41,303 bases of DNA from an uncultured Clostridia bacterium (GTDB lineage: Bacteria > Bacillota > Clostridia > TANB77 > CAG-508): assembly GCA_947594845.1 (NCBI GenBank), contig CANQEI010000011.1:1-41303 (forward strand), given 5' to 3'. Made by a program: the position numbers and the translations under genes. The notes below the pieces were generated by a model. The model saw nothing but the letters and a program-made list of their open reading frames with translations, did no database searches and was not told the DNA's origin. This document shows positions 7,764 to 11,148 of the stretch, piece by piece (the stretch's first letter is position 1; every line of letters starts with the position of its first letter).

Positions 7764-7793
7764 AATTAAAAGGCATATGCATGCCTTTTAATT
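7764..7793 (-). terminator. Terminator candidate of the GH10-PHP operon
   Basis: A perfect 13-bp inverted repeat (AATTAAAAGGCAT with its complement, 4-base loop) overlaps the last codons of the minus-strand gene ending at 7788. The U tract on that side is broken, so efficiency is uncertain. The stretch 7624-7763 holds no gene I can support. Confidence 0.55.
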
Positions 7794-8240
7794 TTTACTA
7801 AATATATTTTTTATCTTATTTATAATTTTTCTAAAAATTGATTCTTTATGATTTACCACTGTAACTTCTTTAGTATTTTCAATATTTGGCTTATGATTAT
7901 AATTATTCTTATTTTGGAAAATATCAACATTATATTTTTGTTTTTTTTCCTCTTCTAATTTCATTCTATCATAATTTTGCTTTGCAATGATTTTATTTTT
8001 TTGGAATTCTGTTGCCCAATAATCTCTAAATAATAATATAATAATTCCTTGTGCTATTTTTGAAACATTTTGTTCTTCTAGTGTTTTATTAGGGTCATAA
8101 TTAAATGTATATTCTCTACTAGCATTTGTTTCAAATAACTCAATTTTTTCCTTTGGTATTTTATTATAATTATTTACTGGAATGTATTTTAATATTTCTA
8201 AGACTTCACTATATGCTATTGCATATTTGTTCTCTAACAT
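7788..8240 (-). CDS. Small protein of unknown function, partner of the GH10-PHP fusion
   Basis: The 150 residues are helical and charged. The N-terminal ~80 residues hold the patterns YSEVLEILKYIPVNNYNKIP and LLFRDYWATE; a basic region with a KLEEEKKQKYN helix follows; the C-terminus (IFRKIINKIKNIF) is a clear amphipathic, basic helix suited to the membrane surface. No catalytic motif or signal peptide is seen. I believe similar proteins occur in other gut Clostridia, but I cannot name a family. The ATG lies 4 bases after the stop of the fusion gene, and its AGGAG is inside that gene's last codons, so the two are translationally coupled. Confidence 0.72.
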   Translation of the reverse strand: MLENKYAIAYSEVLEILKYIPVNNYNKIPKEKIELFETNASREYTFNYDPNKTLEEQNVSKIAQGIIILLFRDYWATEFQKNKIIAKQNYDRMKLEEEKKQKYNVDIFQNKNNYNHKPNIENTKEVTVVNHKESIFRKIINKIKNIFSKN

Positions 8241-8244
8241 ATTA

Positions 8245-10854
8245 CTAATCTCCTATGTTTTGGGAATTATCTTGTCCTTCTCTTTGTTCTATCAATTCTC
8301 TTTGTTGCCTTAACTGCGTTTGTTCTATTTTATCTAATAGTGTAAAATCTGTAACACCTTGTATAGATTCTTGCACTAATCCTTGTATAGATTTAGTTTT
8401 TGTTCGATTTCTAGTTAATGTTTCTAATTGTTTATACTGTGTTACTATATGTAGCTGTTCTAATGTCTGCTCACCAATGATTTGCTTTGCTATTTCATAA
8501 TCTTTCTCAGTTGATAGTTGCCCTGGGAAATGTGCATCTTTTCCAAAAATAACAAATAAATCTTTTCCACTTTCTTTTGCAGTTTTAGTTTCCTCTGCAA
8601 CTATCTTCCAAAACTCTGGTGATGGATAAGGTATTCTTCTTTTTAACTCATCAATTGGCAATTTGCCATCTGCCTTTGATGCTATTTTACCAAAATTAAT
8701 CTCTAATGGAATACCTTTTTCAATGGCTTTTCTGCAAATTGCTCTAGTAATCTCTTCTTCTTTTACTCCAAAAGAATCTCTTGCCTGCATAAATAAATCT
8801 GGATGTGCAATAATATCAGGTAATCCTTTATCAATTGCAGATAAAATTGACTCTGCATATAAGTCTAGCACTTTATCACTAATTTGTTTTCCACCATTTC
8901 CTCTTGCTATACCATACTCTTTTCCATCATCATCAATAACGAAATGTTGACCTAAAACCATTTTATCTGTTCTTGATTTTAATTTTTGCAAATGAGCTAA
9001 ATCTCTATTAGAATATTCAAATTCGAAACCAGACTCTATTTCTATTTGTCCTTTATATTTATCTTGTAAATAATGGATAGAAGTCAAATATGAGTCAACT
9101 TCTGCTATATCCATTCTAGAATTTGCTTTATGGTTCATTCCATCTGGAAGTGGAATATGGTCCGTAAAAGCTAATTTTTTAATTCCACCCTTTATGGCAT
9201 TTTTTACCCATTCCTCATCTCCAGTATCTTTTGCTCCATGCCCACATCTTTGAGTATGTGTATGAAAACAGAAATCTTGTATTGGGTTTTGGTTTACTTC
9301 TTGTTTCTTACTTTCTTTAACTCTTAACATATGATCTTGTATTAATTTCATCTCTTCTAAAGACATTACTATTTCTTTATCCACATCTTTACCAGAGAAG
9401 GTAAAACCTGTTGTGTTATCATAGCTCATTCCTGTAACAGATGCTTGTTTTCCATCACAAAAATCACAACATAATTCGTCAGTTACACTCCAAGCTGTAA
9501 TTCCTCTTATTTTTCCATCTCTTACAAAGTCTCTTAACATTTTCATCATATCATTTTGCAATTTTTGTTCATATTTTCTTATTGCCATTAATTCTTCTGG
9601 TGTTGCAGCTTTATAATCGACACCATCTAAACCTTTAGAAATATCTAATTCTGTTACTTCTACTGGTAAGCCAAATTGCTGTAACTCCTCGATTGAATTT
9701 ATTAATCCTCCAAGATCATTTATGTTTGTGTGACATTGTGTTCCAATATGGTCTATAATTTTGCAATTATTACGTTTCTCAAATTCTTGAATCTTTCTAA
9801 TAACTTCAAATATCGTTTTTCTTTTGTCTGGATTTTCAAAATTCCAATCATTATAACCAAAATCAACATTAGGCATTTCTTGTTTTATAGCTAATGCTAT
9901 CTCACATAAATCTTCAACACTTAATTTTGACATCCAGTTATTTGTTCTTTCGGAAAAAGGGGCATGATAATCCACAAACTCATTAAACATATCTATTGTT
10001 GTTGGCACACCTTGTTTTTCGTATTCATTTGCAACTGATGCTACTGCTTTACCGTAATTTTGTAGTGCTGTTCTAAATGCCTCTGCATTTTCTCCTAATA
10101 GTCTATCTGGAAAATCTTTAAAGAATACAAGTGCATTTATTCTTATATCCATACCATGTGCTTTGGCAAATTCGTAACCCTGCCTTAATGGTTCAAGATT
10201 ATAATCTTGTGGCTGTGCCTGTTCTTCATTTTCAGTCTTTATAACACCTGCTACTGTTCCAAATTTTCCTTGCCCATCAAGTGTTAGTCTATTAAATCTA
10301 TTCTGTCCATTTTCTAATTTTTCAACAATATACTTATATAATGCTTCTACTTTTTGATATGTTTTTTCCATATCAACTTCTGCATTTTTGCTATCTGGAT
10401 CGACAGTTTGTCCGTTTTTATCTACTAGAAATGTTAAAATTCCATGTGTTTGATATGCAAAATACTTTTTTATATCTAAAATAGTATCAATATATGCAGG
10501 ATCTATTTCTTTTCCATCAAATAGTTTTTCTAAACTTTCTTTTGATTCCCAATTTGCCCTTATTTGCATTGCATTTTCTAATAAAAAATTTAGAAAATCA
10601 TCTTTATTAGGGATATTAGTTACTTTTTCATCTACCACTTTCCTAATTTTCTGTGTGGTAGTTAGTCCTTTAGAGTTCATTTCTTTAGACATTTGACTGG
10701 TTTGTGATATTTCATCTAAATATTCATAAACTCTTTGCACTGCTTCTTCATGACTTTGTGATTGTTTTATTATATTAAATAAATCTATATTCTGACTATT
10801 TAAGGTTATTCCTCTAACAGTATTCTCATCAGTTAAACTTCCAATTAAATCCAT
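8245..10854 (-). CDS. Cytoplasmic fusion: GH10 xylanase-like barrel plus PHP phosphoesterase
   Basis: The protein has 869 residues and no signal peptide. Residues 1-~110 are helical and unrecognised. Residues ~160-465 match GH10: TENEEQAQP, FAKAHGMDIR, acid/base Glu292 (FNEF), YNDWN at 335-339, IGTQCH at 370-375, nucleophile Glu402 (VEVTELDI) and ITAWSVTDE. The usual subsite residues of RGHTLVWH are lost (RINALVFF), so the substrate is probably not ordinary xylan. Residues ~528-805 are a PHP domain of the histidinol-phosphatase type with a complete metal set: HTH 531-533, CGH 537-539, TDH 564-566, Glu607, His637, AHPD 683-686 and GKDAH 771-775. A glutamine-rich coiled tail follows. The start at 10854 has AGGTG upstream; 41 codons of open frame before it lack a ribosome binding site. 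One operon with the gene ending at 7788. Confidence 0.85.
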   Translation of the reverse strand: MDLIGSLTDENTVRGITLNSQNIDLFNIIKQSQSHEEAVQRVYEYLDEISQTSQMSKEMNSKGLTTTQKIRKVVDEKVTNIPNKDDFLNFLLENAMQIRANWESKESLEKLFDGKEIDPAYIDTILDIKKYFAYQTHGILTFLVDKNGQTVDPDSKNAEVDMEKTYQKVEALYKYIVEKLENGQNRFNRLTLDGQGKFGTVAGVIKTENEEQAQPQDYNLEPLRQGYEFAKAHGMDIRINALVFFKDFPDRLLGENAEAFRTALQNYGKAVASVANEYEKQGVPTTIDMFNEFVDYHAPFSERTNNWMSKLSVEDLCEIALAIKQEMPNVDFGYNDWNFENPDKRKTIFEVIRKIQEFEKRNNCKIIDHIGTQCHTNINDLGGLINSIEELQQFGLPVEVTELDISKGLDGVDYKAATPEELMAIRKYEQKLQNDMMKMLRDFVRDGKIRGITAWSVTDELCCDFCDGKQASVTGMSYDNTTGFTFSGKDVDKEIVMSLEEMKLIQDHMLRVKESKKQEVNQNPIQDFCFHTHTQRCGHGAKDTGDEEWVKNAIKGGIKKLAFTDHIPLPDGMNHKANSRMDIAEVDSYLTSIHYLQDKYKGQIEIESGFEFEYSNRDLAHLQKLKSRTDKMVLGQHFVIDDDGKEYGIARGNGGKQISDKVLDLYAESILSAIDKGLPDIIAHPDLFMQARDSFGVKEEEITRAICRKAIEKGIPLEINFGKIASKADGKLPIDELKRRIPYPSPEFWKIVAEETKTAKESGKDLFVIFGKDAHFPGQLSTEKDYEIAKQIIGEQTLEQLHIVTQYKQLETLTRNRTKTKSIQGLVQESIQGVTDFTLLDKIEQTQLRQQRELIEQREGQDNSQNIGD

Positions 10855-10950: not shown

Positions 10951-10979
10951 AAATGTCAGTAATATATTTACTGACATTT
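10951..10979 (-). promoter_or_regulatory. Perfect 12-bp hairpin in the leader of the GH10-PHP gene
   Basis: AAATGTCAGTAA and TTACTGACATTT flank a 5-base loop. On the minus strand the hairpin is followed by TTTTC, about 95 bases before the start codon. A -10-like TATAAT lies upstream on the same strand at 11006-11011, with a poor -35. It could be an attenuator, an operator or a spare terminator. Confidence 0.5.
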
Positions 10980-11072: not shown

Positions 11073-11148
11073 TGGTGGGCAACGAGGGGGTCGAACCCTC
11101 GACCTTCTGATTAAGAGTCAGCTGCTCTACCAACTGAGCTAGTCACCC
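11073..11148 (-). tRNA. tRNA-Lys (anticodon CTT)
   Basis: This is a cloverleaf on the minus strand. The acceptor GGGTGAC pairs with GTTGCCC using two G-U pairs, the D-arm carries AGCTCAGTTGGTAGAGC, and the anticodon loop is CTCTTAA with anticodon CTT. Discriminator A and CCA (11073-11075) are encoded. Confidence 0.96.

Follow-up and report, generated by a model that had tools for sequence, protein, structure and literature searches.

The stretch of DNA analysed here (the window) comprises positions 1 to 41,303 of contig CANQEI010000011.1 (GenBank assembly GCA_947594845.1), from an uncultured Clostridia bacterium of the GTDB lineage TANB77; CAG-508. At positions 8245..10854 on its minus strand, a single open frame running from ATG to stop encodes a protein of 869 amino acids (aa), in which a glycoside hydrolase family 10 (GH10) barrel is joined to a PHP phosphoesterase domain, both scoring above Pfam cut-offs and both with relatives in metagenome-assembled genomes (MAGs). 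Four nucleotides (nt) past its stop codon lies an open reading frame (ORF) for a protein of 150 aa (7788..8240, minus strand), referred to below as the partner, the GH10-PHP gene being its cargo. The cargo consists of an N-terminal region (residues 1-182; 10309..10854), the GH10 barrel (residues 183-460; 9475..10308), the PHP domain (residues 530-812; 8419..9267) and a C-terminal tail (residues 814-869; 8248..8415), all on the minus strand. An initial annotation, made from the sequence alone, had placed one 869-residue frame at these coordinates, correctly; the plus strand over the same positions is riddled with stop codons, and an alternative in-frame start upstream at 10977 would give a product of 910 aa. 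No signal peptide was seen in the 869-aa protein, because a crude hydropathy test revealed no strongly hydrophobic stretch, which bears out the same annotation. Its two-domain description also stood, while the tail at the C-terminus and the partner gene that comes after it had been overlooked; the tail is shared with other proteins and the partner follows the gene, and the protein therefore belongs to a larger polymorphic set.

The GH10 domain was recognised by Pfam-A (PF00331) at residues 183-460 (E 3.8e-29; score 102.3 bits, cut-off 22.1), by a phmmer search of PDB sequences with residues 1-510, which returned GH10 xylanases (4l4o, E 1.8e-14), and by a Foldseek comparison of an AlphaFold2 model with PDB structures (GH10 xylanases, best E 5.0e-10), the model of the 869-aa protein being of moderate confidence (mean predicted local distance difference test score, pLDDT, 69.7; alignment of 7 sequences). 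The acid/base Glu292 and nucleophile Glu402 named in the initial annotation are found in the motifs NEF and VTELD, respectively. All 7 of the 7 GH10 cargos compared retain both glutamates, the preceding Asn, the His of the Q-x-H pair and the last-strand Trp, and 6/7 retain the Gln. Fold, Pfam match and catalytic pair together qualify the domain as a predicted GH10 glycoside hydrolase. The remodelling of the sugar site that had been pointed out from the sequence was borne out by this comparison: the standard GH10 block RGHTLVWH reads RINALVFF, beginning at residue 238, and the conserved -1 subsite His of this block is replaced by Asn240. In the usual numbering of GH10 subsite residues, the His80 position is Asn and the Trp84 position is Phe. 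Asn also occupies the -1 position in cargos from the related loci L021, L011 and L009 and is found in the GH10-PHP types and their GH10-only relative L011, while the more distant GH10 cargos of L068, L071 and L080 have His.

Among the nearest folds are intracellular GH10 xylanases of solved structure, identified by their PDB titles as IXT6 (2q8x/1n82) and XynB (3emc). These have in common with the cargo the barrel fold, the catalytic Glu pair, the Asn ahead of the acid/base residue, the Q-x-H pair and the last-strand Trp, whereas the cargo has INALVFF in place of GHTLVWH, an extra ~180 aa at its N-terminus, and the PHP domain and tail at its C-terminus. Because intracellular GH10 xylanases are known, the earlier statement that GH10 enzymes are normally secreted was too strong, and an intracellular location of the protein is no surprise. 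Nothing in Pfam-A matched N-terminal of residue 183; this region is predicted to be mainly helical, and its beginning (GITLNSQNIDLFNII) resembles by eye the starts of the GH10 cargos of L021, L068, L071, L080 and L011.

The PHP domain was matched by PF02811 at residues 530-720 (E 6e-12; score 46.6 bits, cut-off 26.4), and HisJ-type NCBIfam matches extended to residue 802. A PDB sequence search with the residues after 510 returned histidinol phosphatases (E 1.8e-5), and the AlphaFold2 model matched HisK/HisJ structures (3dcp, E 3.1e-9; 2yxo, E 5.4e-9). The PHP motifs HTHT, CGH, FTDH, LGQH, AHPD and KDAH are present, in keeping with the metal ligands expected by the initial annotation, and the His/Asp motif positions checked are kept in 6/6 PHP-bearing rows of an alignment of relatives (A3). 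The further assignment to the histidinol-phosphatase type held at the family level and went too far at the level of HisJ itself, whose curated NCBIfam cut-offs were not reached (80.2 vs 133 bits and 77.4 vs 90.2 bits); the domain thus has the fold and the His/Asp motifs in common with HisJ/HisK (2yxo, 3dcp) but scores below the HisJ cut-offs and is fused behind a GH10 domain. Relatives of the PHP domain also occur in other settings in the same order: one stands alone (L018), and in L020 (580-2373) another is joined to an APH-type kinase (PF01636, E 3.1e-14), which puts a kinase and a phosphatase in one chain. L019 was listed with L020 for this kinase-PHP type, the Pfam scan having covered L020 alone.

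The fusion of the two domains is real. A scan of one genome per species gave 16 loci, of which 8 (L002-L009) span both domains; L011 and L012 have GH10 without PHP, and the rest are cut off by contig ends or, as L017, match PHP alone. Among 56 relatives of the genome studied, 6 matched, that genome included: G004 encodes a divergent GH10-PHP protein, G033 has PHP alone, G039 and G051 have PHP behind a different N-terminal part (an APH kinase in G039 by Pfam), and in G012 the sole match is to residues 814-869. Both domains lie in one frame in five other, related MAGs (alignment A3), which argues against an artefact of frame or assembly, and this explanation was rejected. The structure prediction and domain searches that had been proposed as checks supported GH10 and PHP, and the chains with both domains that had been proposed as a further check were found in these related MAGs. 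Two of the 8 loci have a split PHP frame, the GH10-PHP frame of L005 (9989-12614) being broken within PHP and that of L006 likewise; decay and assembly error are the candidates. The initial annotation knew of no described GH10-PHP architecture, and none was found in the open-licence literature by exact-phrase search on family and domain names.

The G012 match identified the tail as a unit of its own. The G012 protein (295 aa, without a Pfam match) has only the tail in common with the GH10-PHP protein, and a copy of one small gene, the partner, begins no more than 5 nt after each of the two genes. The partner family was found in 228/292 genomes of the bacterial family (35/39 genera) and in 45/52 relatives across the order; in a class-wide sample it occurred in 10/291 genomes, all 10 within this order. 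The genome studied has 9 copies. A set of 100 stretches around partner copies was fetched and a total of 118 loci, some of them duplicates, were read together, giving 120 partner ORFs, 82 of which are immediately preceded on the same strand by an ORF of 110 aa or more. These cargo counts omit ORFs that are shorter than 110 aa, lie more than 65 nt upstream or overlap by more than 85 nt; near-duplicates (>75% identity) were dropped only for the set of 69 non-redundant cargos and were kept in the 118, 120 and 82. An upstream ORF of at least 90 aa was present at 54/77 partners compared with 103/284 control genes. Partner copies without a cargo directly upstream include those at L062 4970-5437 and L009 8503-8958, and 36 such copies were listed.

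The 69 non-redundant cargos fall into 45 body clusters, with no BLAST similarity between bodies at E 1e-3; a few of the clusters plainly consist of housekeeping genes. When a subset of 55 upstream ORFs was compared by cross-cargo BLAST, unrelated cargos resembled one another in their final 40-50 residues alone (for example, 54% over 48 aa at E 2e-10), and the proteins that have the tail in common include ones with pTERF/mTERF-type repeats, a second GH10 type and proteins without a Pfam match. In a jackknife with eight seed clusters (near-duplicates included), in which the tail profile was built without the body cluster tested, 22/29 seed-cluster tails were recognised at E <= 3.5e-6 by the profile of the other clusters, compared with 7/360 control ORFs at E < 0.01; these 7 were five genes in partner loci that look mTERF-like by eye, together with the L009 and L008 genes for GH10-PHP. 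A strict tail motif was found in 22 of the 69 non-redundant cargos and 16 of the 45 body clusters, at a median of 38.5 residues from the C-terminal end, and in 13/475 controls, 8 of these 13 being cargo-type genes in partner loci; it was absent from internal cargo stretches (0/62). The tail of the GH10-PHP protein itself is a weaker version without the LG-x-E-T core and has low pLDDT in the AlphaFold2 model. Among close relatives, the tails of L002, L003, L005, L006 and L014 were recognised by the jackknife profile and that of L007 was not. Cargo tails are slightly acidic on average (net charge -2.4).

Unrelated enzymes and repeat proteins make up the identifiable cargos. Pfam matches (E <= 0.001) were tallied over 62 sequences, namely 61 of the 69 non-redundant cargos and a cargo-like protein located after a partner (L063, 3258-5105): mTERF was found 7 times, GH10 5 times, and PHP and transglutaminase-like domains twice each, with single matches that include LRR, amidoligase, MnmA, ABC transporter, alpha/beta hydrolase and cell-wall hydrolase. 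One cargo has a Fic match barely over the cut-off (25.6 vs 24 bits), and in four detailed family scans 8/40 sequences had any family over cut-off. None of the 22 motif cargos has a hydrophobic N-terminus, compared with 60/284 control ORFs (at least 200 aa). The mTERF-type repeats of 7/62 sequences invite comparison with pTERF proteins, which are described in PMC11417379 as binding specific DNA (Kd 1.87 nM for pTERF1) and as occurring in MAGs, the first of them from a ruminant-gut Clostridia MAG; host kind and repeat type are the same, and that paper treats pTERFs as DNA-binding repeats, its section 53 making no mention of a tail or partner gene. Further tail-bearing genes that look mTERF-like by eye lie near one partner in L083 (several in a row), L074 and L101, and a 1408-aa cargo of the genome studied (L064, 148-4374) ends in a tail-like stretch, with no Pfam family scoring over cut-off. 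An ADP-ribosyltransferase identity, suspected by look for the 295-aa cargo of L022, found no support.

The partner is predicted with high confidence to form a small helical fold over residues ~1-100, followed by a low-confidence stretch (residues 110-144). Its C-terminal residues 133-150 (7791..7844, minus strand) correspond to a putative cationic amphipathic helix, drawn at 136-147 with low confidence and favoured by a family-wide hydrophobic moment test, in which the last 24 residues exceeded shuffled versions of themselves in amphipathicity (z > 1.64) for 96/109 partners compared with 23/150 controls; the mean net charge of the C-terminal stretch was +4.7 against +0.4 in controls. A known fold for the partner was rejected: the best PDB fold match (E 2.2) is noise, the best profile match among PDB sequences had E 0.13, and no Pfam or NCBIfam family scored over cut-off. 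Similarity of tails and similarity of partners across body clusters are weakly correlated (rho 0.24; 49 pairs; reached by 15/2000 permutations). A limited search of the open-licence literature gave no description of the tail and partner. A phage origin was set aside, since relatives of the partner and cargo were unconfirmed in viral contigs and the partner was not found in phage records; neither partner nor cargo had a PHROGs match at E 0.1. A defence system was likewise rejected, PADLOC having given no match for 5 proteins tested (for the partner, at E 0.1). Among plasmid records, 8 match parts of the query and 0 cover 80% of it, so that full-length plasmid-borne relatives were not found.

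The cassette changes position between relatives and looks mobile. None of ten ORFs flanking it in the window was found in any of 17 loci (tblastn, E 1e-15), several of which have short flanks. In L002, where the cargo is 90% identical and the flanks extend for 10 kb and 9 kb, the window's flanking ORFs are nonetheless missing; the L002 cassette has a tyrosine-integrase-like gene on one side and serine-recombinase-like genes on the other, both recognised by eye. A tRNA-Lys gene of the window (11073..11148, minus strand) lies ~220 nt upstream of the cargo start, and in L005 a tRNA-Met gene lies ~290 nt upstream of the cassette; no tRNA gene was found in L002, L003, L007 or L009. Reading of the ORFs in the window showed no sugar-use genes directly beside the GH10-PHP gene.

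Our searches for secretion components revealed a VirD4-like ATPase (PF02534), the coupling ATPase expected where type IV-secreted effectors occur, in the genome studied (E 1.2e-62) and at E <= 1e-60 in 47/48 relatives. The version found in the order is 47-80% identical across eight order genomes in the class sample, and matches of at least 350 residues outside the order reach 41% identity; 63/188 genomes outside the order also match. No relaxase or VirB4 gene adjoins the VirD4-like gene in the loci read. VirB4 had no match in the genome studied (93% complete) and was over cut-off in 0/48 relatives, with matches below the cut-off in 45/48. Type VII secretion was rejected, EssC being under its cut-off in the genome studied (113.8 vs 778.4 bits) and over it in 3/52 relatives. 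The VirD4-like gene itself is preceded in L148, L149, L150 and L154 by a J-domain gene (DnaJ-like by eye) and a conserved gene of ~170 aa, and in four loci it is divided between two frames whose junction falls right at the Walker A loop (L148 ~9373, plus strand; L149 ~10566-10588, L150 ~7553 and L151 ~10263-10285, minus strand). The junction has an identical short DNA string in L148, L149 and L151, and in L152-L155 the gene forms a single frame. The two-frame form may reflect a conserved programmed frameshift.

We consider it probable that the bifunctional enzyme is one payload of a system of tail-tagged cargos and an adaptor. In this proposal the gene would be the cargo half of a two-gene cassette, and its product a soluble enzyme combining a retaining glycosidase of the GH10 type, whose -1 subsite is altered, with a HisJ-like PHP metallophosphoesterase. 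Bifunctional glycosidase/phosphoesterase activity is plausible, and the two domains may act on linked substrates, perhaps a phosphorylated beta-glycoside or glycolipid. The last ~55 cargo residues would serve as a docking tail, and the partner would consist of a compact helical head joined through a flexible linker to a cationic amphipathic helix. The tail would most likely be bound by the head (or by the helix), and the helix may hold both proteins at the membrane, for the enzyme to act there or be passed on. Across this order of gut Clostridia, the same tail-partner pair would serve numerous payloads unrelated to one another.

Several findings weigh against this proposal. The docking of tail and partner is something we infer from sequence, and the correlation between them is weak, with kinship of the genomes not removed. 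The strict motif is missing from 47/69 non-redundant cargos, seven seed tails failed the jackknife (L091, L077, L070 and the GH10 cargos of L007, L011, L012 and L021), and 38/120 partners lack an ORF immediately upstream, many of these being solitary copies with other genes around them. Some upstream 'cargos' (MnmA, ABC transporter, alpha/beta hydrolase, cell-wall hydrolase) are probably ordinary neighbours. Finally, L008 keeps GH10-PHP with no partner found in the fetched stretch, the partner copy of L009 lies upstream of GH10-PHP instead of downstream, and there are the split PHP frames of L005 and L006.

A different role for the same parts, possible yet doubtful in our judgement, is that the cargo is an exported effector or toxin, with the tail as export signal, the partner as adaptor or chaperone, and action in another cell (bacterium, protist or host). 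The soluble, signal-less and diverse payloads would suit this, including as they do Fic-, transglutaminase- and LRR-type proteins and pTERF-type repeats whose relatives bind specific DNA (PMC11417379), and so would the VirD4-like ATPase, strong in 47/48 relatives and more alike within the order (47-80%) than outside it (<=41%). The ATPase gene, however, stands without an adjoining VirB4 or relaxase gene and has counterparts in the 63/188 outside genomes, EssC and VirB4 show the distribution given above, PF02534 matches only weakly in G042, which has 4 partners, and the ATPase also occurs in some genomes that lack a partner. An undescribed effector arsenal, in which unrelated soluble payloads with a common C-terminal signal and a 150-aa adaptor would be exported into other cells by an order-specific, stand-alone VirD4-like ATPase, is thus kept as a bold case, still more tentative, because no VirB4 or relaxase adjoins the gene, EssC is rare, the genome studied has no VirB4 of its own and the PF02534 match of G042 is weak.

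It is unlikely that the protein is an ordinary cytoplasmic enzyme whose GH10 domain cuts a phosphorylated glycoside and whose PHP domain removes the phosphate, as the initial annotation suggested, and for which the tail and the next gene are incidental. Both active sites do look intact, intracellular GH10 enzymes exist, and the PHP relatives, one joined to an APH-type kinase (L020) and one alone (L018), fit small-molecule phosphate chemistry, but a tail common to unrelated proteins, a conserved partner, differing flanks and the lack of directly adjoining sugar-use genes would all be left unexplained. Less likely again is an antitoxin-like partner that silences a harmful payload by binding its tail, since one conserved partner family stands beside up to 45 unrelated body clusters, unlike immunity proteins matched to each toxin, and PADLOC matched none of the 5 proteins, even though the tight pair with cargo first and small partner second, the mobile-looking cassette and the lone partners, which could be solo protectors, fit such a role.

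Polymorphic toxin systems have a constant N-terminal trafficking part, a variable C-terminal toxin and a payload-specific immunity gene next door. The tail-tagged cargos are like these systems, the subject of PMC3482391, in having unrelated payloads on a constant part and mobile-looking cassettes. They differ in that the constant part is C-terminal and short and the variable part N-terminal, and in that the neighbour belongs to one conserved family and is not payload-specific. Reverse-arranged substrates of type VIIb secretion systems and effectors of the Dot/Icm type IV secretion system have a C-terminal targeting region and small adaptor proteins, in which respects they are alike to the cassette, but the genome studied has neither EssC over cut-off nor a VirB4 match.

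The GH10-PHP protein itself presents a pairing of domains, with an altered sugar site, that the exact-phrase search did not find in print. If the tail and partner dock as proposed, one short tag and one small adaptor would serve many unrelated proteins in a group of bacteria that is widespread in the gut and known mainly from MAGs. The cassette would then give a handle by which many orphan genes could be named at once, a possible setting for the pTERF repeats and a simple test of export.

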